Source of the DNA: a virus
DNA length: 25,119 nucleotides
IMG/VR virus record: IMGVR_UViG_3300020436_000087
Location: 1 to 25,119 of that record
Direction: 5' to 3' (one strand)
The notes beneath the pieces were generated by a model, which worked only from the letters and a program-made list of their open reading frames with translations, made no database searches and had not been told where the DNA came from. Position 1 is the first letter of the stretch, and each line of letters begins with the position of its first letter. Below, piece by piece: positions 2,449 to 23,679 of the stretch. The position numbers and the translations under genes were made by a program.

Positions 2449-2863
2449 AGAAGACGTGGATAAAATAATAGAAGATGCTTTAGGTGTTGTAGATAATACA
2501 CCAAGAGTTCCTACAGTAAAAAAAGAAGAACCAATAGTTCCTGTGCCGAAAGAAGGTGATGATATTGATAAAGATTATGTTTATCAAAGAGATAATTTTT
2601 ACAAGTTAATTGAAAAAGGACAAACGGCAGTTCAAGGTATTCTTGATCTTGCTCAAGAGTCAGATCATCCACGTGCATATGAAGTTGCTGGTAATATGAT
2701 TAAGAATGTTGCAGACGTTACTGAAAAGTTAGCATTACTACAAGAGAAAATGAAAAAATTAAAAGAAGTGCCTGGTAAAGCTCCTAAGAATGTAACAAAT
2801 GCTTTGTTTGTCGGATCTACTGCCGAGTTACAAAAAATGTTGAAAAAGAAAAAGGATGATTAA
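2438..2863 (+). CDS. 16: Small terminase subunit gp16
   Basis: This is the T4 gp16-type small terminase, which assembles as a ring, recognises DNA and stimulates the gp17 ATPase/nuclease during headful packaging. At 141 residues it is somewhat shorter than T4 gp16 (about 164). The N-terminal about 45 residues are charged and Pro-rich. The central part (about residues 47-110) is helical, with the typical YVYQRDNFYKLIEKGQTAV and a following coiled-coil stretch of Lys/Glu/Leu. The C terminus is very basic (KMLKKKKDD). The ATG is preceded by AAAAGGA and overlaps the upstream radical SAM gene by 11 nt. The stop overlaps the second radical SAM start by 8 nt. Position directly before gp17, apart from that insertion, supports the call. 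Confidence 0.87.
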   Translation: MRNKEDVDKIIEDALGVVDNTPRVPTVKKEEPIVPVPKEGDDIDKDYVYQRDNFYKLIEKGQTAVQGILDLAQESDHPRAYEVAGNMIKNVADVTEKLALLQEKMKKLKEVPGKAPKNVTNALFVGSTAELQKMLKKKKDD

Positions 2864-3764
2864 TTATAAAGTAAATAGATTTAAAGAAGTAGATATAGAT
2901 CTTACAAATAAGTGTACACTAAAATGTTCAATGTGTGCAAGACAATCGTTTGAACATCCTAATCAAATACCTGGTGGGGATGCCTCTATAGAAGACTTAC
3001 AAAAAATTTTAGATTATTTTGATACAGTATATCTTTGTGGTACTTATGGCGATCCTATATTCAGTCCTAACTTTATACCGTTTTTAAAAATGTGTCATGA
3101 ACAAAACAAACAAGTTCAAGTACACACAGCTGCGTCACATAAACCTATGCGTTTTTATGAAGAGGCATTTGAAGCAAATCCTAACGCAGTATGGTACTTT
3201 GGTCTAGACGGATTACCATATCAAAGTTTTGCATACAGAGTTAATCAAGATGGCGAGTATATATTTGATGTTATGTTAAAAGCAAGAGACATGGGTGTTA
3301 AAGTAGTATGGCAGTATCTAGTATTTAAATACAATGAAGATAAGATTGATCTTGCAAAAAGACTAGCATACAAACATCAATTTGATATTGAGATACATCA
3401 CACATCAAGACATGGTGATAAACCACATCTTAAACCAACAATAGAAAAAGTTGTAGAAGATACAGAAAAAAAAGTATTTGTACCTAAGTGTTTAACAGAA
3501 GGTCAAAGGAAAGTTCCTTACTTAGCCGCAACAGGTCAGATGTATCCTTGTTGTTGGTTAGATCACAATCAAACAAAAGACCCTGAGTATTCAACATTAC
3601 AAGATGAACGTCTAAATATAAAACACAATACAGTAGAAGAAATTATTAAAAGTGATACATGGCAAACTTTCTATGATAATTTATTTACTGATAAGTGTCC
3701 TAGTTATTGTAAAAAGAAATGTACAACTAGTTTACGTAATCCTACAAGAGTGGTAGAAACATGA
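2856..3764 (+). CDS. Radical SAM/SPASM-domain enzyme, copy 2
   Basis: This is a second radical SAM enzyme of 302 residues, with CX3CX2C at Cys20-Cys24-Cys27 (CTLKCSMC) and C-terminal cysteines at 212, 232, 233, 281, 285 and 289 that fit SPASM-type auxiliary cluster ligands. It shares HTAASHK, FGLDGLP, NQDG, WQY, YNED and the PCCWLD block with the 1576-2448 gene, so the two are paralogues or partners. It lies exactly between gp16 and gp17: its start overlaps gp16 by 8 nt and its stop overlaps the gp17 start in ATGA fashion (4 nt). The AAGG just before its ATG is too close for ideal initiation, which suggests translational coupling to gp16. SPASM enzymes are known in RiPP maturation and in sugar or cofactor modification; no precursor peptide is visible here. 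Confidence 0.85.
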   Translation: MINYKVNRFKEVDIDLTNKCTLKCSMCARQSFEHPNQIPGGDASIEDLQKILDYFDTVYLCGTYGDPIFSPNFIPFLKMCHEQNKQVQVHTAASHKPMRFYEEAFEANPNAVWYFGLDGLPYQSFAYRVNQDGEYIFDVMLKARDMGVKVVWQYLVFKYNEDKIDLAKRLAYKHQFDIEIHHTSRHGDKPHLKPTIEKVVEDTEKKVFVPKCLTEGQRKVPYLAATGQMYPCCWLDHNQTKDPEYSTLQDERLNIKHNTVEEIIKSDTWQTFYDNLFTDKCPSYCKKKCTTSLRNPTRVVET

Positions 3765-6035: not shown

Positions 6036-6522
6036 AAATAATTGGAAACCTGATTATAGTAAATTTAAACATTCAGGTTGGAAGTTATTAGATGAGATTG
6101 ACAAAAATGAACATATCTTAGATATAGGATGTGGATACAACTTATTCAAAGAACATTTTCCTAATTTATATGGAATAGATCCCTACAACAACAAAGCAGA
6201 CGAAGAGATACACTTTGAGGACTACAAACCTCATAAGAATTTTGACGTGTTTCTGGCGTTGGGGAGTTTGAATTTTGGCACCAAAAAAACGGTTGACAAT
6301 CAGATAAAACATCTGTATGATATAACGAAAAAAGGTGATGTCATATATTGGCGTCAAAACCCTGGGGTAAGTGACCACCCATGGCAATCAGTTAAGGAAG
6401 TAGTATTCTTCCCATGGTCACTAAAATGGAATGAGTATTTTACTGAAAAGTATTCATTTAAAATTATTAATTTTAAAAAAGATAGTGGGAGTAGATTATA
6501 TGTCAAGTGGATTAGGTCTTAG
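5995..6522 (+). CDS. SAM-dependent methyltransferase (class I)
   Basis: This is a compact 175-residue Rossmann-fold methyltransferase. Motif I is ILDIGCGYN at residues 41-49, the acidic post-I ribose-binding position is in YGIDP (59-63), and a motif IV-like segment FDVFLALGSLNF spans 83-94. The substrate is unknown; the lack of an NPPY/DPPY motif argues against an amino-DNA methylase. The start overlaps the preceding gene by 41 nt and has GAGAG upstream. The 3' end overlaps the symporter start by 23 nt. Near its middle (6293-6321) lies a good TTGACA-N17-TATGAT promoter-like sequence reading toward the symporter. Methyltransferases of this kind often sit in surface-sugar or natural-product modification clusters, which would fit the neighbouring radical SAM, oxygenase and sulfotransferase-like genes. 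Confidence 0.8.
   Translation: MNTKITSKLEEHFRNNWKPDYSKFKHSGWKLLDEIDKNEHILDIGCGYNLFKEHFPNLYGIDPYNNKADEEIHFEDYKPHKNFDVFLALGSLNFGTKKTVDNQIKHLYDITKKGDVIYWRQNPGVSDHPWQSVKEVVFFPWSLKWNEYFTEKYSFKIINFKKDSGSRLYVKWIRS
6293..6321 (+). promoter_or_regulatory. Candidate sigma70-type promoter inside the methyltransferase gene
   Basis: A perfect -35 box TTGACA (6293-6298) is followed after exactly 17 nt by TATGAT (6316-6321), five of six matches to the -10 consensus. It lies 179 nt before the symporter ATG and reads in its direction. It overlaps coding sequence (the FGTKKTVDNQ region), so it may be fortuitous, but this protein segment is not under obvious motif constraint. If active it would let unmodified host RNA polymerase transcribe the symporter and downstream genes early. 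Confidence 0.4.
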
Positions 6523-7918
6523 TGTATTAGCAATATATGGTTTATTTGCTTTTGCAATGACGTATTACTTTTCAAGAGGATACGATAAAAATAAAACATC
6601 TTTCTTAGTGGCCAATAGGGAATTAAATACCTATCAAGGAAGTATGTCAGTAGCGGCCGCATGGTTATGGGCACCAGGATTGTTCATATCAGCACAACAA
6701 GCATACGTAAATGGATTTAACGGATTATTTTGGTTTTGTTTGGGAAACTTTTTAACGTTAGGTGCATTTGCATATTTTGCCAAGAGAATTAGAGACGATA
6801 AACCTCAAGGGTTTACATTCTCAGGTTATTTAAAAGAAAAATTTAGTGGAAGAGTACAATCAGTTTTCGTAGTGGAAATGATGATACTTGCAATATGTGC
6901 CTTTGCAATTAATTTACTTGCAGGGTCTAAAACAGTTGAAGTGTTAACAGGATTAAATTATAATCTAGTTACATTTTTAATGGCAGGTATTGCTATATTA
7001 TATTCTTTCAGAACAGGATTGAAAGCGACAGTTATAACTGAACAAATTAAAATTGTCGTAGTATGGTTAGGTGTACTTATCTTAGTGCCTTGGGTTATTG
7101 TTAACGCAGGTGGTTGGGAAACTGTAACTGCTGGATTTAGTGGAATAAAAGATCCGTCAATGTTAAGTATCTTTTTAGGATTTGGTGCAGCCGCATTCTT
7201 AGGACACATGGGTGGACCTTGGGGTGATAACTCTTTCTATCAAAGAGCATTTTCAATTAAGAAGAAATCTATTATACCTTCTTTTGTACTTGCGTCATTT
7301 ATCTTTATAGTAGTTCCAATAATGATGGGTCTATTAGGATTTGTCGGAGCAGGTGCTGGATTAGATATAACGGATGTTGGAACAACTAACGCTCAAGTAA
7401 TTGCACACTTCTTACCAGGGTTTGCGTCTGTAATCTTTATGTTTATAGTCTTCTCAGGTTTGATTGCAATTCTAGATAGTCAGTTTGCCTCTATTGCAAA
7501 CATGACAGGTCATGATGTTTATAATAAATTTAAAACAAAGACTGCAAAAGGAAACGAAATAGTTTGGGCAAGATACGGAATGATTGCTCTTGCAATCGCT
7601 GGATTAATTATTGCAAACATACCAGGTATGACACTATTATACTTGTTCTTATTCTTTGCAGTATTAAGAGCATCTGTATGGTTGCCTTCAATGATTTCTA
7701 TACTTAAACCTCATTGGGTAAATGAAAGAGGTATGTTTTGGGGTATAGTAATCGCCGCAACTATTGGAGAAGCGTTGTTTGTTTATGGTAAATTAGGATA
7801 TGGTAATACTGCGTTTATAGGAACAATGATTGCTATATTTGGATCTCCAATATTAACTTTGTTAATATCTAATTGGAAACCATATTCATCTGACCAATGG
7901 AAAAAAGTAAACTATTAA
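6500..7918 (+). CDS. Sodium:solute symporter family transporter
   Basis: This is an integral inner-membrane protein of 472 residues with about 13 hydrophobic helices, the usual topology of the SSS family, which imports a solute with Na+. Residues 32-90 (beginning SFLVANREL, then WLWAP, YVNGFNGLFWF) resemble the first core helices of the family, and to my eye the urea/DUR3-like branch. The helix at about 310-335, with IAILDSQFASIA, corresponds to the Na+-site helix with its Ser residues. The chosen ATG at 6500 has GGGAG at 6487-6491. A start at 6431 would add 23 residues but lacks this support and deepens the overlap with the methyltransferase. The gene looks intact. The substrate is not determinable by eye. 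A phage-borne host-like transporter suggests nutrient uptake during infection. Confidence 0.88.
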   Translation: MSSGLGLSVLAIYGLFAFAMTYYFSRGYDKNKTSFLVANRELNTYQGSMSVAAAWLWAPGLFISAQQAYVNGFNGLFWFCLGNFLTLGAFAYFAKRIRDDKPQGFTFSGYLKEKFSGRVQSVFVVEMMILAICAFAINLLAGSKTVEVLTGLNYNLVTFLMAGIAILYSFRTGLKATVITEQIKIVVVWLGVLILVPWVIVNAGGWETVTAGFSGIKDPSMLSIFLGFGAAAFLGHMGGPWGDNSFYQRAFSIKKKSIIPSFVLASFIFIVVPIMMGLLGFVGAGAGLDITDVGTTNAQVIAHFLPGFASVIFMFIVFSGLIAILDSQFASIANMTGHDVYNKFKTKTAKGNEIVWARYGMIALAIAGLIIANIPGMTLLYLFLFFAVLRASVWLPSMISILKPHWVNERGMFWGIVIAATIGEALFVYGKLGYGNTAFIGTMIAIFGSPILTLLISNWKPYSSDQWKKVNY

Positions 7919-11546: not shown

Positions 11547-12077
11547 ATGGCTAGTATAGACGATTTTAAAGCACAATTAAAAGGTGGTGGTGCAAGACCC
11601 AATCAGTTTAGAGTAACGATTGTACCGCCAATTGGTATTGTAACAGGACTAAACGTAGCAAACTCATCATTTCTATGTAAGGCTTCTAAATTACCAGGTC
11701 AAACACTTGGAGAAATAGAAGTACCTTTTAGAGGAAGAAAAATTTATGTAGCAGGTGATAGGGAGTTTGAAACTTGGAATAGTACATTTTTAAATGATAC
11801 AGACTTTAATATCAGAAACGCAATAGAGCGTTGGATGAATGGTATTAATGATCTTGCTGATAATACAGGTACAATTGTTTCTAGTGACTATCAATCAGAC
11901 TTAACAGTTGAACAATTAGATAGAGACGGAACAACAATTAAATCTTATATTTTCAGAAATGCTTATCCATTAACATTAGCAGACATTGAGTTATCTTACG
12001 AAACTGTTAATGCATTGGAAGAGTTTGAGGTGACATGGAGATATCAACACTTTGAAGCAAGTGGTGTAAACTTCTAA
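11547..12077 (+). CDS. 19: Tail tube protein gp19
   Basis: This is the inner tail tube subunit on which the sheath assembles. It has 176 residues, compared with 163 in T4. The signature includes RPNQFRVTIVPP near residues 17-28, SKLPGQTLGEIEVPFRGR near 48-65, and the C-terminal MEVTWRYQHFEA-like block (EFEVTWRYQHFEASGVNF here). The start is one base after the gp18 stop, with GGAGG just upstream inside gp18. A related protein with the same pattern (LPG, LGE, P, GD and a Trp helix) occurs at 19967-20545. The next gene, portal gp20, has its own promoter-like octamer. Confidence is very high. Confidence 0.95.
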   Translation: MASIDDFKAQLKGGGARPNQFRVTIVPPIGIVTGLNVANSSFLCKASKLPGQTLGEIEVPFRGRKIYVAGDREFETWNSTFLNDTDFNIRNAIERWMNGINDLADNTGTIVSSDYQSDLTVEQLDRDGTTIKSYIFRNAYPLTLADIELSYETVNALEEFEVTWRYQHFEASGVNF

Positions 12078-12115: not shown

Positions 12116-13711
12116 ATGGCAGAGCTATTCGGATTTAGATTCGAAAGAATAAAAGATATCAGACCTGAGGACAAATTTGTTCAGAAGTCGCCAGATGACG
12201 GAACAGTAGAAATATCTGGTGGTGGACACTTTGCCCAGGTCTTAGATATTGACGGTAAAGACAGAAACGATCTAGATCTTATTCGTAGATATAGAGACAT
12301 TGCCCAACAACCAGAATGCGATAGTGCGATAGAGGATATCGTAAACGAAGCTATTGTATCAGATGAAAGAGATACCTCAGTAGAAATAGTTTTAGATAAT
12401 CTAAAATATTCTAACAAAATTAAAAACAGTATGAGGGAAGCTTTTGCTGATATAAAATCTTTGTTAGACTTTGATACTAAAGGACATGATATCTTTAGAC
12501 GTTGGTATGTTGATGGCAGATTATTCTATCATAAGATTATTGATTCAAAAAATCCTAAACTAGGTATTCAAGAAGTAAGATATATTGATCCTAGAAAAAT
12601 CAGAAAAGTAAAAGCAGTTCAAAAAGTGCCTGGGCCACAAGGTTCAACAATCGTTAAAGATGAAGAGGATTATTATCTTTACAATGAAAAGATGTTGAAA
12701 GGTATGATGAACCAAGGTATGAGAATTGCCGAAGACGCAATAACTTATTGTCCGTCTGGTTTGATTGACGCAAACAAAAATCAAGTATTATCTTATTTAC
12801 ATAAAGCAATTAAACCTGTAAATCAATTAAGAATGATTGAAGACAGTTTAGTTATTTACAGAATATCTAGAGCACCAGAGAGAAGAATATTTTATATTGA
12901 CGTTGGTAACTTACCAAAACTAAAAGCAGAACAATATCTAAAAGATGTTATGAACAGGTATAGAAACAAACTTGTTTATGACGCAAAGACAGGTGAGATT
13001 AGAGACGATAGAAATCACATGTCAATGTTAGAAGACTTTTGGTTACCTAGAAGAGAAGGTGGAAGAGGAACAGAGATTACTTCTTTACCAGGTGGTTCAA
13101 ACTTAGGTGAGATAGATGACATTACATATTTCCAAAGAAAACTTTACAGAAGTTTAAATGTTCCTATATCAAGATTAGAAGCAGAACAATCTTTTTCACT
13201 AGGAAGATCTACTGAGATTACAAGAGACGAATTAAAGTTTACTAAGTTTATTAAAAGAATAAGAAAGAAGTTTATACCTTTATTCTTAGATATGTTGAAG
13301 ACACAACTTATCTTAAAAGGTATTATCAATATTGAAGAGTGGCCTAGAATAAAAGAACACATTCAATTTGATTTCTTAAAAGATGGTCACTTCTCAGAAT
13401 TAAAAGAACAAGAATTATTAAATGAAAGAATTAATATGTTAGGATCAGTAGAAAACTACATTGGTACTTTCTTTAGTAAAGAGTTTGTTTACAAAAAAGT
13501 ATTGAGAATGAGCGACCATGAGATAGAAGAGATAAGAAGACAGATTAACAAAGAGGCAGGTAGTGAAGTTGATGACGGTGGAGTTGATATTCCAAATACA
13601 GACGGAATTACTAGAGTGCCTTCTTTCGGTGGGGAACCAATGGTTGAACCTACTAAGACACCAGACCCAGATAAACAAGATGGTGATGATGACGATATAA
13701 ATAATACATAA
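12116..13711 (+). CDS. 20: Portal protein gp20
   Basis: This is the dodecameric portal vertex through which DNA is packaged and ejected and on which prohead assembly starts. Its 531 residues match T4 gp20 (524). Recognisable blocks are the N-terminal FGFRFER start, QPECDSAIEDIVNEAIV near residues 62-78, the KIIDSKNPKLGIQEVRYIDP region, RISRAPERRIFYIDVGNLP near 248-266, MLEDFWLPRREGGRGTEI near 305-322, and SRLEAEQSFSLGRSTEITRD near 348-367. These last stretches are the usual cores of marine gp20 phylogenetic markers. The C-terminal tail is acidic and Pro/Asp-rich. The gene has a strong TAGGAG ribosome-binding site. Confidence is very high. Confidence 0.97.
   Translation: MAELFGFRFERIKDIRPEDKFVQKSPDDGTVEISGGGHFAQVLDIDGKDRNDLDLIRRYRDIAQQPECDSAIEDIVNEAIVSDERDTSVEIVLDNLKYSNKIKNSMREAFADIKSLLDFDTKGHDIFRRWYVDGRLFYHKIIDSKNPKLGIQEVRYIDPRKIRKVKAVQKVPGPQGSTIVKDEEDYYLYNEKMLKGMMNQGMRIAEDAITYCPSGLIDANKNQVLSYLHKAIKPVNQLRMIEDSLVIYRISRAPERRIFYIDVGNLPKLKAEQYLKDVMNRYRNKLVYDAKTGEIRDDRNHMSMLEDFWLPRREGGRGTEITSLPGGSNLGEIDDITYFQRKLYRSLNVPISRLEAEQSFSLGRSTEITRDELKFTKFIKRIRKKFIPLFLDMLKTQLILKGIINIEEWPRIKEHIQFDFLKDGHFSELKEQELLNERINMLGSVENYIGTFFSKEFVYKKVLRMSDHEIEEIRRQINKEAGSEVDDGGVDIPNTDGITRVPSFGGEPMVEPTKTPDPDKQDGDDDDINNT
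13696..13703 (+). promoter_or_regulatory. T4-type late promoter at the end of gp20
   Basis: A perfect TATAAATA lies inside the last codons of gp20 (Asp-Ile-Asn), 22 nt before the gp67-like ATG. AAGGAG at 13714-13718 follows. Its distance matches the octamers before gp20 and the gene at 16212. It probably drives the prohead core/protease unit. Confidence 0.6.
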
Positions 13712-14193: not shown

Positions 14194-14577
14194 ATGGCAG
14201 TAGTATTACAAACATTAAAAGACTCAGATTTTGAACACGTTGTAAAAGTTACAACAACTGGTACTAATTCTGCGGCTTCAATTGTTGACGCTTCTGCGTT
14301 AGCAGGTGCAGATACAAATCCAAGACTATCAATAGTATCTTGTACGTGGACAGTCGGATCACAAACAGACATTTTATTTGACGCAACTTCAGACGTTGTT
14401 GCATTATCACTAAACGGTAATGGTAACATTAACGGAGCTGCTCAACATATTCCGTCTATCGCAAATAATGCTGGATCAGGTGTAACAGGTGACATTCAAT
14501 TAACCAATTCATCAGCCTCAGTAGGAACAATAATTTTACATTGTAGAAAGGTATCGGGTTACGATAATATAACGTAA
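14194..14577 (+). CDS. Probable structural protein, beta-rich, unknown function
   Basis: This 127-residue protein is rich in Thr, Ser, Ala, Asn, Gly and Val, with alternating beta-strand patterns throughout (residues 15-25, 43-60, 66-75, 95-120) and no membrane segment. The composition is like that of virion surface or decoration proteins. It carries a short opening helix (VLQTLKDSDFEHVVKVTTT) and ends HCRKVSGYDNIT. AAGGA precedes the ATG. Its stop overlaps the gp21 start by one base (TAATG), so it is translated with the protease gene. It has no counterpart at this place in T4. A decoration or head-fibre-like role is an inference; the reading frame itself is well supported by spacing, ribosome-binding site and codon pattern. 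Confidence 0.8.
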   Translation: MAVVLQTLKDSDFEHVVKVTTTGTNSAASIVDASALAGADTNPRLSIVSCTWTVGSQTDILFDATSDVVALSLNGNGNINGAAQHIPSIANNAGSGVTGDIQLTNSSASVGTIILHCRKVSGYDNIT

Positions 14578-15236
14578 TGCAAACAGTAAAACTTATAACA
14601 GAAGCTAACGATTTTGATTCATCTAATTTCTTAATAGAAGAGAAGAATGGTAAGAAGAATTATAAGATCAAAGGTATCTTCATGCAATCAAACATTAAAA
14701 ACAGAAATGGTAGAGTATATCCAAAAGAAGTTTTAATGAAAGAAGTTAAAAACTACACTAGAGACTTTATAGAAAAAAATAGAGCGTTTGGTGAGTTAGG
14801 ACACCCAGACGGTCCAACTGTAAATCTAGACAGAGTATCACATATGATTACATCTTTAAAACAAGAAGGTGATAACTTCATAGGTGAAGCAAAGATTATG
14901 GACACACCTATGGGTAAGATTGTAAAAAATCTTATGGACGAAGGTGCAACTCTTGGTGTATCATCTAGAGGAATGGGTTCATTAGACTCTAGAGGTAATG
15001 CAAATTACGTAAGATCAGATTTTAAATTAGCAACTGCAGGTGACATAGTTTCAGACCCATCTGCTCCTAGTGCTTTCGTAGAAGGTATTATGGAAGGTAA
15101 AGAGTGGGTATGGGATCATGGAAGTTTAATTGAAGCACACGTTGCAGAAGCAAAAGCAAGAATTGAAAAAAGAGCGAAAGTAAAAAGAGATCTAGAATCA
15201 AGTTTAGAGTTCGCAAAGTTTTTAAAACAGTTATAA
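14577..15236 (+). CDS. 21: Prohead core scaffold protein and protease gp21
   Basis: This is the serine protease that matures the T4-type prohead by degrading the scaffold and trimming the capsid protein. It has 219 residues, close to T4 (212). The catalytic His is probably His76 in GELGHPDGP, and the nucleophile Ser129 or Ser130 is in LGVSSRGMGS; both blocks are diagnostic of the herpesvirus-assemblin-like U9/S80 family. The segment KNRNGRVYPKEVL at 41-53 is also typical. A substrate site of the expected (Leu/Ile)-X-Glu form occurs in gp23 at residues 50-52. The start overlaps the preceding stop by one base. Unlike in T4, two foreign genes separate it from the scaffold gene gp22. Confidence 0.94.
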   Translation: MQTVKLITEANDFDSSNFLIEEKNGKKNYKIKGIFMQSNIKNRNGRVYPKEVLMKEVKNYTRDFIEKNRAFGELGHPDGPTVNLDRVSHMITSLKQEGDNFIGEAKIMDTPMGKIVKNLMDEGATLGVSSRGMGSLDSRGNANYVRSDFKLATAGDIVSDPSAPSAFVEGIMEGKEWVWDHGSLIEAHVAEAKARIEKRAKVKRDLESSLEFAKFLKQL

Positions 15237-15248
15237 TTAGGAGAAATT

Positions 15249-16184
15249 ATGAGCATTAAAGTAAATTGGTTGATTGCACACAAACCTGTAAATCTGTTTA
15301 TTAGAACAGCTAAAGCGTTTCAAGAAGCAATCAAAAGTGCAACAAAAGGAAAATACGAAATCGTAATTCACGAAAAAGAAAGTGAAGAACATTTTGAAGC
15401 TGAAACAGGTAAGTTACCTGTAACTGCGTTATCGTGCAATGACTATCAAATGTCACAAACCGAAGTTTATAAAATTGGTAAAATGCATGATGGTGTAAAA
15501 GATTTCCTAGCATTAGATTTACCATTCTTATTTGAATCACACGATCATTGTTCAAAAGCAATGGAAGGTGATCTAGGTGATGAATTAAACTTTAAATTAT
15601 CTCATCATCTAAATGTACAAGGATTAGCATACACATATTCAGGTGGATACAGAAACTTTGGATCTAATACTAAAATTTCAAGTTTGGCTGATCTACAAAA
15701 CTCTAACAAAATTAAAGTTGGTGGAAATCCTGTTTGCCAAGATTACATCAAAGAGCTTGGTGTAGAAACTTCAAAACAAGTTATTCAATCAAATACAGAG
15801 TGGTTGGAAATGTCAGACTTAGAAGCAGAGTCAGTAGAAAATACTTACACTAGATTTCCCGAAGCTAAATATTGGTTGAACACAAACCACAACATGTTTA
15901 TTACAGACATCATGGTATCAAATGATTTCTGGTCAACATTGTCAGACGAAGATCAAGAAATTTTTAGAAAGACAGCTATTGAAGTTGCAAGACTAGAAAG
16001 AAAATGGTCTGAGGAAGATCATGAAAACTATGAGTTAGAAGCAAAGAAACATGGTAAGACTATTACAAAAATTTCTGAAGAAGACAAAATTAAGATGAAA
16101 GAAAAAGCAATTCCTATATATGAAAAATGGGAAAAGATATTTTCAGATTCATTGATTTCTAAAGTTAAGTCATACGCAGCTTAG
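15249..16184 (+). CDS. TRAP transporter DctP-family solute-binding-like protein without signal peptide
   Basis: This 311-residue protein has the DctP/TRAP periplasmic binding pattern across its whole length. The blocks are an opening strand and helix (VNWLIAHKPVNLFIRTAKAF), DLPFLFESHDHCSKAMEGDL near residues 90-109, GLAYTYSGGYRNFGSN near 125-140, a SLADLQNSNKIKVGGNPVCQ hinge near 145-164, and NHNMFITDIMVSNDFWSTLS near 213-232. The C-terminal helices contain DEDQEIFRKTA. It begins where a mature binding protein would begin, with no signal peptide, so it should stay in the cytoplasm or enter the prohead. The conserved ligand-carboxylate Arg in the hinge block appears to be Lys156. A strong TTAGGAGAA ribosome-binding sequence precedes it. 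No DctQ/DctM membrane subunits are in the window. It sits between the protease gp21 and scaffold gp22 genes. Confidence 0.85.
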   Translation: MSIKVNWLIAHKPVNLFIRTAKAFQEAIKSATKGKYEIVIHEKESEEHFEAETGKLPVTALSCNDYQMSQTEVYKIGKMHDGVKDFLALDLPFLFESHDHCSKAMEGDLGDELNFKLSHHLNVQGLAYTYSGGYRNFGSNTKISSLADLQNSNKIKVGGNPVCQDYIKELGVETSKQVIQSNTEWLEMSDLEAESVENTYTRFPEAKYWLNTNHNMFITDIMVSNDFWSTLSDEDQEIFRKTAIEVARLERKWSEEDHENYELEAKKHGKTITKISEEDKIKMKEKAIPIYEKWEKIFSDSLISKVKSYAA

Positions 16185-16190
16185 AAATCT

Positions 16191-16198
16191 TATAAATA
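16191..16198 (+). promoter_or_regulatory. T4-type late promoter upstream of the 16212 gene
   Basis: A perfect TATAAATA lies in the 27-nt gap after the DctP-like gene, 13 nt before the next ATG, followed by TAAGG as ribosome-binding sequence (16201-16205). The short distance means a transcript would have a leader of only a few bases, so it may serve downstream gp22 as much as this gene. Confidence 0.55.
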
Positions 16199-16211
16199 AA
16201 TAAGGTATATT

Positions 16212-16850
16212 ATGTATAGTTGGTTTAACGAGTTGACTCGTATTCAAAAACCAAATCGTGAGAAAGAAGATTATCATCATTATGGATTATATGAAGTAGA
16301 AATATTAAATACTTTATTTCGTAATCATAATGTTGAAACAGTATTGAGTCTAGGGGGAATGAGTAACTTAGATTTTTTTCTAGCGCAATATGATAATAAC
16401 GTCAAAACTGCGATAAATATTGATGAAGCAGAAACTTGGCGGCCTTCAAAAGGAGGCAATGGATTTAATCTTAGAGAGAAACAAAAAGATTATATTCAAA
16501 GATTTAAGTATAATGGGGAATACATCTTTACGAATCAAAAATTAGATTCCTATGATGTTGTTGACAAACGGTATGATGTTGTCTTTTGTAATATAGACAC
16601 ACTAAGAGGAAGTATGAAGGTTTTGCCAGATATCTTCATCAAGATGTGGTCTCATATGGGATTAGTTGAAACTACAAGAGAAAAGATGACAACCGAATAT
16701 GAAAAGATTTTTAGTAATGTGTTGGTCACAACGAATATGACTGTATTCTCTAATTATACTTTAGAGTATGAGAACAATATCGTATCCACCTCCACAAAAC
16801 TAAGAAATAATAGGACTTTTGTTTATCAAGCGGATGATTTACCCCTGTAA
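16212..16850 (+). CDS. Unknown protein, possibly a degenerate Rossmann-fold methyltransferase
   Basis: This 212-residue protein is not recognised. It contains a strand-turn-helix resembling methyltransferase motif I (VETVLSLGGMSNLDFFLAQY near residues 41-60), then an acidic strand end (INIDEAE), and a motif IV-like YDVVFCNID near 120-128. The glycine-rich loop is not canonical, so SAM binding is uncertain. There are no membrane segments or signal peptide. It is isolated between the DctP-like gene and gp22, with late-promoter octamers on both sides, which predicts late expression. Its codon use looks more like the accessory genes (many AT-ending codons, GGG and GCG here and there) than like the neighbouring head genes, consistent with acquisition. 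It could be an internal head protein or a modifying enzyme; neither is shown. Confidence 0.72.
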   Translation: MYSWFNELTRIQKPNREKEDYHHYGLYEVEILNTLFRNHNVETVLSLGGMSNLDFFLAQYDNNVKTAINIDEAETWRPSKGGNGFNLREKQKDYIQRFKYNGEYIFTNQKLDSYDVVDKRYDVVFCNIDTLRGSMKVLPDIFIKMWSHMGLVETTREKMTTEYEKIFSNVLVTTNMTVFSNYTLEYENNIVSTSTKLRNNRTFVYQADDLPL

Positions 16851-16922: not shown

Positions 16923-18350
16923 ATGGCTAATGAATTAGACAAAACCATTGAGGAATTAGAAGCGGAAGTTTTGGCTGAACTAGAGGAAGCCAAGGGTGCA
17001 GACGCTCCTAAACAAGGCAGCATGAAAGCTGAACCAATGGACAAAGCAAAGGTTGACGGAGCTGAGGGCGGCGATGAAGTTCAAGATACAGGTGCTCCTG
17101 TAGTGGACGGAAAACAAGGTGAAGCCCCTGTGAAGAAAGTCGTTGCGAAAGCAAAAGAAATTACTGGTGACCCTGCACAAAAAGGTGAAGGTAAACCAGA
17201 TGCTACTCCAAAACTTAAAGAAGAAGAAGAGAAGAAAGACGAAAAATCAGAAATGATGATGAAAGACAAAGAGAAAAAAGAAATGATGATGAAAGACAAA
17301 ATGAAAAAAGAAGATTCGTCTGAAGAAGTAGCAAAAGAAGAAGTAGAAGAAAAAGTTGACATTGAAGAAATGCAAGGACAAATGATGAAGGCAATGAAGT
17401 CTATGAAAAAAGACGAAATGCAAGAGTTATATGCTTCTTACATGAGAGCCTCTATGAACAAAACAAAAGACGAAATGTATCAAGAGATGGCTAATGGCAT
17501 GAAGAAAATGAATGCTATGAAGATGAAAGAAATGATGAACAAGATGTCAAAAAAAGCAGAGACAGTTGAAGCTGAAAAAGATGCTAAAACAGAAGAAAGA
17601 CTAAAATCAGTTGACGTAAAAGAACACGTAGATGCTCTTTTATCAAATGACTCAAATCTTTCTGATGAGTTTAAAAACAAAGCAGCTACAATTTTTGAAA
17701 CTGCTGTAAAATCTAAAATCAGAACTGAGATCAAGAGACTTGAAGACGAGTACAAAGACGAGTTGATTGAAGCACAAGCAGAAAACAGAAAATCTTTATC
17801 CGAAAAAGTTGACAACTACTTAAACTATGTTGTTGAAGAGTGGATGAAAGAGAACGAACTTGCTCTTGAAAGAGGATTAAAGGGTGAGATCGCTGAAGAC
17901 TTTATTAGTGGTCTGAAAAACTTATTTGAAGATCATTACATAGATGTGCCTAACGACAAGTACAATGTTCTTGAAGCTCAGGCAGATAAAATCTCTACGT
18001 TAGAGAAAAAATTAGAGGAAACTATTCAACAAGTTGTTGAGCAGAAACAATCTAATGCTTCTTTAATAAAAGAGAAAGTTAAAACAGAAGTTACTTCTGA
18101 TTTGACTGAAACAGAAATTGAGAAGTTTAATACTTTGGCTCAGGATGTTGAGTACTCAAACGAAGAAGGTTATGCTGAAAAGCTTAACACAATCAAAGAG
18201 TCTTACTTTCCTAGAAACAAAACTGAAAAGACTTCAAACGTTAATGATGAAGTAGAAACTGGCACCGCTGTACAGGACATTACAGAGGGTTCCCCAATGG
18301 ATAGGTATACAACCGCTATTGGAAAAACTGCTGTAAGACACGGCAATTAA
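16923..18350 (+). CDS. 22: Prohead scaffold core protein gp22, with long N-terminal extension
   Basis: This is the major scaffold, around which the prohead forms and which gp21 then degrades. Residues about 230-400 match the gp22 family: a domain starting VDVKEHVDALLSNDSNLSD, then KVDNYLNYVVEEWMKENELA near 295-314, and LKNLFEDHYIDVPNDKYNV near 332-350. The protein is 475 residues, against about 269 in T4. The extra length is an N-terminal low-complexity region: Ala/Glu/Lys/Pro/Gly at 20-100, then Met/Lys/Glu-rich segments at 105-215, including a perfectly adjacent repeat of MMMKDK at 111-116 and 121-126. Several (Leu/Ile)-X-Glu sites could be cut by gp21. It has a strong ribosome-binding site and twin late promoters. 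gp23 follows 25 nt downstream. Confidence 0.88.
   Translation: MANELDKTIEELEAEVLAELEEAKGADAPKQGSMKAEPMDKAKVDGAEGGDEVQDTGAPVVDGKQGEAPVKKVVAKAKEITGDPAQKGEGKPDATPKLKEEEEKKDEKSEMMMKDKEKKEMMMKDKMKKEDSSEEVAKEEVEEKVDIEEMQGQMMKAMKSMKKDEMQELYASYMRASMNKTKDEMYQEMANGMKKMNAMKMKEMMNKMSKKAETVEAEKDAKTEERLKSVDVKEHVDALLSNDSNLSDEFKNKAATIFETAVKSKIRTEIKRLEDEYKDELIEAQAENRKSLSEKVDNYLNYVVEEWMKENELALERGLKGEIAEDFISGLKNLFEDHYIDVPNDKYNVLEAQADKISTLEKKLEETIQQVVEQKQSNASLIKEKVKTEVTSDLTETEIEKFNTLAQDVEYSNEEGYAEKLNTIKESYFPRNKTEKTSNVNDEVETGTAVQDITEGSPMDRYTTAIGKTAVRHGN
17253..17312 (+). repeat. Two tandem 30-bp repeats within gp22
   Basis: Units 17253-17282 and 17283-17312 differ at only two adjacent bases (GAG versus ATG at codon 7), encoding MMMKDKEKKE and MMMKDKMKKE. 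This looks like a recent in-frame duplication in the low-complexity part of the scaffold gene. Confidence 0.85.
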
Positions 18351-19966: not shown

Positions 19967-20545
19967 ATGGCAATCAGAGGTCAACCATCTAATATAGACT
20001 ATGCGTCACCAACGCAGTTTCAATTAACTGTAAATCAGTTGCCTGAAGTAGAGTTTTTTATTACTAGTCTTACATTACCTGGTATCAATCTAGGTGAGAC
20101 TGTTATTCCTACACCTTTAAAACAAATTCCAACAATGGGTGATGAATTAACTTTTGAAAATCTATCATTAAGTTTCTTAGTAAATGAAACGTTTGATAAT
20201 TACATAGAGATACACAATTGGTTAATTGGAATAGGATTTCCACAATCAAATCAACAATTTTCTAATTTTAGAACAAATACAGCAGTAACACCAGAATCAA
20301 CTTTAGGAAAAACTACAGATATAGGTGAAACATCTAGACCAACTCCAACAAAAGGTATGTTCTCAGACGCAACATTAACATTACTTACAAATAAAAACAA
20401 TCCAATTGCAGAGGTTAAATTTCAAGATCTTTACCCTGTATCATTATCTTCATTAGACTTTTCGCAAGAACAAACTACTGTAGATTATCTAAAGGCTCAA
20501 GCCGAGTTTCAATATAAATATTATACAATCAATAAATTTTCATAG
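19967..20545 (+). CDS. 3: Tail tube-family protein, probable gp3 tail completion protein
   Basis: This 192-residue protein shares the gp19 tube pattern by eye: SPTQFQLTVNQLP near residues 14-26, then TLPGINLGETVIP near 36-48, GDELTFENLSLSF near 57-69, and a Trp-containing helix (HNWLIGIGFP). In T4, gp3 terminates the tube, and the tube-initiator gp54 shares the tube fold. In marine T4-like phages the gene between gp23 and uvsY is usually called gp3, which is why that name is favoured here. Residues about 100-130 form a Thr/Ser/Pro-rich loop absent from gp19. The TAG stop overlaps the ribosome-binding site of the following 33-residue gene. The family is likely; the gp3 name rests mainly on synteny. 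Confidence 0.68.
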   Translation: MAIRGQPSNIDYASPTQFQLTVNQLPEVEFFITSLTLPGINLGETVIPTPLKQIPTMGDELTFENLSLSFLVNETFDNYIEIHNWLIGIGFPQSNQQFSNFRTNTAVTPESTLGKTTDIGETSRPTPTKGMFSDATLTLLTNKNNPIAEVKFQDLYPVSLSSLDFSQEQTTVDYLKAQAEFQYKYYTINKFS

Positions 20546-23130: not shown

Positions 23131-23679
23131 ATGGCTAAAAAAGAATTAAAAAAAGAACATTACGTAGATAATAAAAAACTTTTTGAGGAAATGAAAAAGT
23201 TTAAAGCGGAGTGTGTAGATGCTGAAGAATGTGGTGATCCTAGACCACCTGTACCTTCTTATATAGGTGAGTGTTTTCTTAAAATCGCAAACGGATTATC
23301 TTATAGACCTAATTTTGTAAACTATACTTACAAAGAAGAAATGGTATCTGATGGTATAGAGAACTGTTTACAATATCTTTATAACTTTGATCCAGCAAAG
23401 TCTAATAATCCTTTTGCATACTTCACACAAATAATTTATTATGCGTTTATTAGAAGAATACAAAAAGAAAAGAAACAAACGCATATCAAACATAAAATCA
23501 TAGAAAAATCAGCATACATGACACACACACAATTACCAGGTGATACAACCGCATATAGTATTCAAGGTTTTGATCCAACGATTATGTTACCAGATGAACC
23601 CGTAATAAAAACAAAAGAGAAAGTTAAAGATCATGCAAATGAGGGTTTAGAAGTTTTTATGAATGAGGATAAAGAATGA
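23131..23679 (+). CDS. 55: Late-transcription sigma factor gp55
   Basis: This is the T4-type minimal sigma factor that directs host RNA polymerase to TATAAATA late promoters together with the sliding clamp gp45 and co-activator gp33. It has 182 residues, compared with 185 in T4. The N-terminal charged helix is followed by YRPNFVNYTYKEEMVSDGIE near residues 58-77 and a region-2-like segment (CLQYLYNFDPAKSNNPFAYF, then IIYYAFIRRIQKEKKQ to about 115), which contacts the core enzyme and the -10 element. The short C-terminal LEVFM with flanking acids may be the clamp-binding tail. Its start lacks a ribosome-binding site but lies just after a sigma70-like promoter. The stop overlaps gp47 (ATGA). 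The late octamers found upstream of structural genes are its expected targets. Confidence 0.93.
   Translation: MAKKELKKEHYVDNKKLFEEMKKFKAECVDAEECGDPRPPVPSYIGECFLKIANGLSYRPNFVNYTYKEEMVSDGIENCLQYLYNFDPAKSNNPFAYFTQIIYYAFIRRIQKEKKQTHIKHKIIEKSAYMTHTQLPGDTTAYSIQGFDPTIMLPDEPVIKTKEKVKDHANEGLEVFMNEDKE

Follow-up and report, generated by a model that had tools for sequence, protein, structure and literature searches.

The window, a stretch of 25,119 nucleotides of viral DNA (positions 1 to 25,119 of IMG/VR record IMGVR_UViG_3300020436_000087), encodes on its plus strand a 311-amino-acid protein of the DctP fold (SBP family 7) that lacks a signal peptide (15249-16184, ATG start). The protein belongs to a phage family that is leaderless throughout, has strongly conserved residues, is associated with late promoters and is mobile between genomic positions. 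With a probability of roughly 0.55, it is a phage-specific, late-expressed cytoplasmic Venus-flytrap binder that derives from an exported TRAP protein and would serve as a sponge, buffer, sensor or carrier. Among the options offered in a preliminary description of this DNA, a ligand sponge or sensor acting in the cytoplasm is the best supported. In the textbooks, TRAP binding proteins are exported and serve import, and a large phage clade that has their fold and the pocket signature but lacks export, a transporter and often the carboxylate-selecting Arg would represent a binding protein turned to an intracellular job. If the family binds a ligand, this would hint at a metabolite that has to be retained or sensed by T4-like phages late in infection. 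Such genes should not be annotated as "transport" auxiliary metabolic genes. In the open literature searched, neither a description of a phage DctP nor a report of a large phage DctP family was found.

Fold and start of the window protein

The window protein belongs to the DctP fold family, with a similarity far beyond chance. It matches the Pfam profile PF03480 with an E-value of 4.6e-35 (121.8 bits against a cut-off of 23.4) and covers positions 13-285 of the 286 in the profile, as a full-length member does. The NCBIfam profile TRAP_S1 is matched at 3.1e-25, and DctP chains in the PDB match down to 1.3e-19. An AF2 model based on a 33-row alignment, with bacterial DctPs among the rows, reached a pLDDT of 93.4; on seven phage rows alone, the pLDDT was just 49 and the model was unusable. 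The predicted structure has TRAP binding proteins as its top Foldseek matches (4p47 at 3e-23; 8t9t with a TM-score of 0.85). No other fold scored above DctP in the profile, PDB and Foldseek comparisons, and the fold assigned on first inspection therefore stands.

As had been described, the gene has its own ribosome-binding site, which is read directly as AGGAG at 15239-15243 (plus strand). The stop codon of the preceding gene, encoding the prohead protease gp21, lies at 15236 and excludes an in-frame upstream extension of the ORF. In the AF2 model, β-1 is formed by residues 3-10, so that the protein appears to start where the mature domain of its exported relatives starts. Two features of a TRAP transporter subunit, namely the signal peptide and the hinge Arg, were looked for in the window protein and both are missing. 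It is therefore assigned to the DctP fold family without being counted among the TRAP transporter subunits. The claims that an export signal is lacking and that no TRAP membrane subunit lies nearby are both borne out, the latter for DctQ and DctM within the 25-kb window, phage records being fragments.

The DctP-type TRAP binding proteins HiSiaP, 4p47 and IseP (8t9t) share with the window protein the predicted fold over the whole length (TM-score up to about 0.85), an Arg at a conserved position (R135), the conserved His214 and the full Pfam profile. Unlike the phage protein, they possess the signal peptide and the hinge Arg. The phage family is further set apart by its specific residues W7, F17 and R19 and by late-promoter cores upstream of most of its genes. 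Comparison of the window gene with its relative on contig L006 gives a dN/dS of about 0.11, which indicates purifying selection.

The window of this T4-like phage also encodes an SSF sodium:solute symporter (6431-7918; PF00474 at 6.7e-22, PHROG_20720 at 1e-87), located upstream of the sheath gene.

The signal-less family and its exported relatives

Relatives were searched stepwise in IMG/VR, starting from contigs near the window (L001-L005) and continuing to L006-L009 (82% identity), L010 (72%), and L014 and L016 (60-63%). A second branch was reached via L038 at about 31-34% identity. The pooled alignment then gave at least 133 confirmed relatives, mostly on T4-like contigs, of which 80 were kept; these contigs are metagenomic and redundant, and their ORF calls are rough. 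A signal peptide is absent in all 80, as judged by start positions and hydrophobicity rather than by a dedicated predictor. The start lies 0-14 residues from the motif W-[LV]-[IL]-A-H-x-P or is supported there by a ribosome-binding site. For L190 and L191, export via an upstream ATG and a hydrophobic stretch was considered and rejected, as the GGAG site belongs to the inner start.

A hydrophobic leader is present in 50 of 51 bacterial DctPs that were retrieved likewise, and the remaining one has a mis-set start. TctC/Bug proteins (PF03401) encoded in the same phage loci carry a signal peptide in 31/31 cases, and in phage G761 a signal-less DctP immediately follows an exported one. Thus, phages use signals when export is wanted, and the missing signal is a stable trait of the DctP family, not of phage binding proteins in general. 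The exported TctC/Bug proteins resemble the DctP family in being binding proteins carried by large T4-like phages, but they would feed a transporter and their genes typically lack a late promoter. Cyanophage PstS is another phage-encoded exported binding protein that feeds a transporter.

It has to be weighed whether the signal-less proteins reach the outside of the membrane through a non-classical pathway or when the cell lyses, where they would feed host transporters or bind solute for sibling infections. The neighbourhoods do have a transport theme, with TctC genes in 23 of the 58 non-redundant loci and genes for TctA and an MFS transporter in L096. However, a DctP-type membrane partner is not seen, proteins that these phages do export carry signal peptides of the ordinary kind, and a protein released by lysis would be diluted. 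A function outside the membrane is thus very unlikely. The genes for exported TctC/Bug proteins occur in L090-L099 and others, often several per locus, and the TctA of L096 is a permease.

Several phages have two or three DctP-like paralogues, with up to three intact ones per phage. In four phages (L214, L216, L217 and L218), a DctP is split into two adjacent ORFs, the N-terminal part having 156-159 amino acids and the C-terminal part up to 162. Each of these phages also has an intact paralogue elsewhere in the genome.

No isolate with a member of the DctP family was found among 50,697 phage records, a collection from which entries close to the window may be absent and in which the sole matches resemble contamination and show about 20-29% identity. 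The statement that DctP-like genes have been annotated in some marine phages is therefore not supported by these records. A scan of cellular genome contigs with alignment A1 gave no signal-less relatives. With a mixed alignment, the sole signal-less match labelled as cellular was L038, a viral-looking 3.1-kb contig from a Methylococcaceae bin.

In a tree of 81 rows, the phage proteins form a single clade with a support of 99/95, and their sister in the sampled tree is the exported G185 pair, joined at 100/99. This pair consists of tandem orphan exported DctPs of one alphaproteobacterium, encoded on a bacterial chromosome (L209:7711-10077), and no TRAP membrane genes were seen near it. In an HMM search of 385 + 369 proteobacterial genomes, the exported pair gave the best score with 168 bits and nothing scored above it; for comparison, L038, itself included in the alignment, reaches 524 bits. 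Another 398 genomes yielded no close relatives of the pair, and the bacterial sample is not exhaustive. The pair shares H11, P13, S69, Q70, H98, H100, TYSGG, R202 and T219 with the phage family, but it has signal peptides, keeps the hinge Arg and lacks W7, F17 and R19. Because the exported sister carries the pocket signature, the pocket appears to have been inherited from an exported binder. The simplest reading of these sequences is that the signal peptide was lost once, from an exported binder with the same pocket, before the gene spread among phages.

Pocket signature and hinge position

The first signature of the family, W7-[LV]-I-A-H11-x-P13-..-L16-F17-..-R19, is located at the end of β-1 and the start of helix 1 (15267-15305, plus strand). 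W7, H11, P13, F17 and R19 are invariant in 56/56 phage sequences, and L16 is found in 54/56. The second signature, T129-Y-S-G-G-[YF]-R135 (15633-15653, plus strand), belongs to the hinge strand. Its TYSGG is invariant in the 56 phage sequences and in the exported G185 pair; among 23 other bacterial DctPs, T129, S131 and G132 occur in none and Y130 in one.

The hinge Arg that selects the carboxylate is present in 96.8% of the TRAP binding-protein family (PMC4646407). In the window protein, Lys156 (codon 15714-15716, plus strand) aligns with this position, which corresponds to Arg147 of SiaP, in agreement with the replacement proposed in the preliminary description. The position is occupied by Arg in 23 of the 56 phage sequences, by Lys in 2 and by other residues in 31, compared with Arg in 25/25 bacterial sequences. 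In SiaP, the exchange R147K weakens the affinity from 0.14 µM to 38.7 mM (PMC4646407). A change from Arg to Lys is therefore not trivial, and classical high-affinity carboxylate binding cannot be assumed in the phage family. Columns conserved to at least 95% number 24 in residues 1-139, comprising the first lobe and the first hinge strand, versus 2 in residues 140-207 of the second lobe. This split may be read as a constant and a variable half of the cleft.

Enzymes can be built on a binding-protein fold, as exemplified by MqnA/MqnD and THI5-type proteins. A phage protein of this kind might work in the cytoplasm with the products of the neighbouring 2OG-oxygenase, methyltransferase-like or PP-loop genes, and a cleft surrounded by invariant His, Arg and Gln, combined with a variable second lobe, would suit a catalytic function. 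A pair of 2OG-oxygenase-like and methyltransferase-like genes is kept beside DctP in L010, L014 and L016, and PP-loop-like genes are found in 32/58 loci. However, no neighbour is universal, and profile comparison shows no relationship between the methyltransferase-like neighbours of the two marine groups. Moreover, most of the signature is common to the exported binder G185 and so predates the move to the cytoplasm, which makes an enzymatic function of the phage family unlikely.

The PP-loop-like proteins, which have an SGGxDS motif and almost no Pfam match, are encoded in L150, L092, L038 and others, sometimes in tandem. A beta-keto acid cleavage enzyme is encoded beside DctP in L174 (8970-9881; PF05853 at 1.6e-92), and the same family is present in five non-redundant phage loci.

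Late promoters, genomic context and possible role

The T4-type late-promoter core ATAAATA is located at most 70 nt upstream of 41 of the 58 non-redundant DctP genes, mostly at -26 to -50; these promoter counts are not phylogenetically independent and include no correction for shared descent. The background amounts to 37/277 (13%) of the other genes with a ribosome-binding site in the same loci and to 1.7% of random windows. TctC genes have the core in 1/28 cases and PP-loop-like genes in 4/36. The window gene has no late promoter of its own. Since the nearest upstream site of the late-promoter type, TATAAATA at 13696-13703 (plus strand), precedes the stretch from gp21 to DctP, late expression of the window gene would proceed by read-through. 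The same motif occurs at 16191-16198 (plus strand), just past the DctP stop and upstream of the ORF starting at 16212. The T4 family as a whole probably uses late transcription of the gp55 type (PMC2988020). The window contains a gene assigned as gp55 (23131-23679), whose product is 56% identical to the annotated late sigma factor of the pelagimyophage isolate Mosig, and Gp23 is found in 12/25 long carrier contigs and in 7/7 of those of at least 180 kb. Its promoters suggest that the DctP family is expressed late in infection.

In the window, the gene follows gp21 (14577-15236; PF03420 at 6e-34, Peptidase_S77), and the scaffold gene gp22 (16923-18350; T4_CASP at 1.8e-63) lies downstream, both on the plus strand; gp23 is recognised by a profile match of 1e-144. 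The identities of gp21 and gp22 were correctly given at the outset, but DctP is not alone between them. A 212-amino-acid ORF on the plus strand (16212-16850), weakly methyltransferase-like by eye, lies between DctP and gp22. It matches no Pfam family above the cut-off, shows 79-81% identity in L001 and L005, and adjoins DctP only in the clade of the window. A universal methyltransferase partner was considered and rejected, as this ORF and the neighbour in L010, L014 and L016 are not detectably related by profile.

A comparison of the gp21-gp22 interval among related phages had been suggested and gives a divided picture. The interval holds DctP in L001-L005, and L011 starts inside DctP and runs on into gp22, but in Mosig the interval is empty. 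Other relatives lie beside baseplate-type genes, named by eye (L006-L009), beside the replicative helicase gene (L010), in a cassette with methyltransferase-like and 2OG-oxygenase-like genes (L010, L014 and L016), or with TctC and PP-loop genes (L090-L099). Within the window, sliding identity and mismatch positions delimit a block at about 15219-16265 that is about 98% identical to L002, whereas both flanks are about 82% identical. Between the same two phages, DctP has a dS of 0.075, compared with 0.63-1.43 in six other genes. The block is a recent allele exchange, and DctP is therefore mobile cargo under purifying selection. With at least three other contexts among the relatives and the exchanged block in the window, a capsid-specific role was dropped, and so was the special link to capsid assembly that had been seen in the location. 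The position between gp21 and gp22 is accidental.

That DctP is a functionless gene captured from a host, or has been re-used structurally in head assembly, is extremely unlikely; the structural re-use was one of the initial suggestions. Its position and its full length despite the missing signal would fit such an origin, but the low dN/dS, the residues kept invariant across deep divergence, the dedicated promoters and the many contexts, along with the vacant interval of Mosig, speak against it.

As a virion protein, DctP could be enclosed in the prohead or sit on the particle, and would be delivered to the next cell or bind ligand as a decoration on the outside. The late promoters are compatible with this, as are the location of the window gene in the head-assembly module and the copies beside baseplate-type genes. 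T4 internal head proteins are likewise products of late phage genes, although the head-module location is seen in the window only, and, unlike them, the DctP family has neither a targeting peptide nor a conserved gp21 cleavage site. The proteins start directly at β-1 with no N-terminal capsid-targeting extension, the gp21-type motif [LI]xE is found in just 13/56, and for many members the neighbours are not structural genes but TctC, PP-loop, oxygenase and methyltransferase-like genes. Prohead packaging, also raised initially, lacks support, and a place in the virion is on the whole improbable.

The preferred reading, a cytoplasmic binder, can be put as a sequence of steps. A subfamily of TRAP-type DctP would have undergone a single loss of the signal peptide, followed by spread among large T4-like phages. 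Under gp55-type late transcription of the phage, the protein would be made late in infection and, being leaderless, would remain in the host cytoplasm. The flytrap fold and the pocket (H11, P13, S69-Q70, H98/H100, TYSGG, R135 and R202) would have been kept. Given the retained fold and the inherited pocket signature, the most likely ligand is a small metabolite, probably an anion, around which the flytrap would close. As no TRAP membrane partner is seen, the suggested role is that of a sponge, buffer, sensor or intracellular carrier and not one in uptake.

The phage cytoplasmic sponges Tad1, Tad2, Acb2 and Acb4 offer a working analogy, in that a small cytoplasmic protein may sequester an anionic metabolite. 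Their folds differ from that of DctP, and their function is anti-defence, in which a sponge would sequester an immune nucleotide signal; the proposed likeness to the DctP family is one of mode of action. More speculatively, and with little confidence, the family might consist of cytoplasmic flytrap sponges or sensors of T4-like phages whose paralogues and split forms, alike in the first lobe but divergent in the second, each capture a different host metabolite or alarm or immune signal late in infection.

Two further features of the window were observed. Two radical-SAM/SPASM-like genes (1576-2448 and 2856-3764) flank a terminase-small-subunit-like gene just before the large terminase gene. 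A second tail-tube-like (gp19) gene follows gp23 (19967-20545) and groups with the one at 11547-12077.
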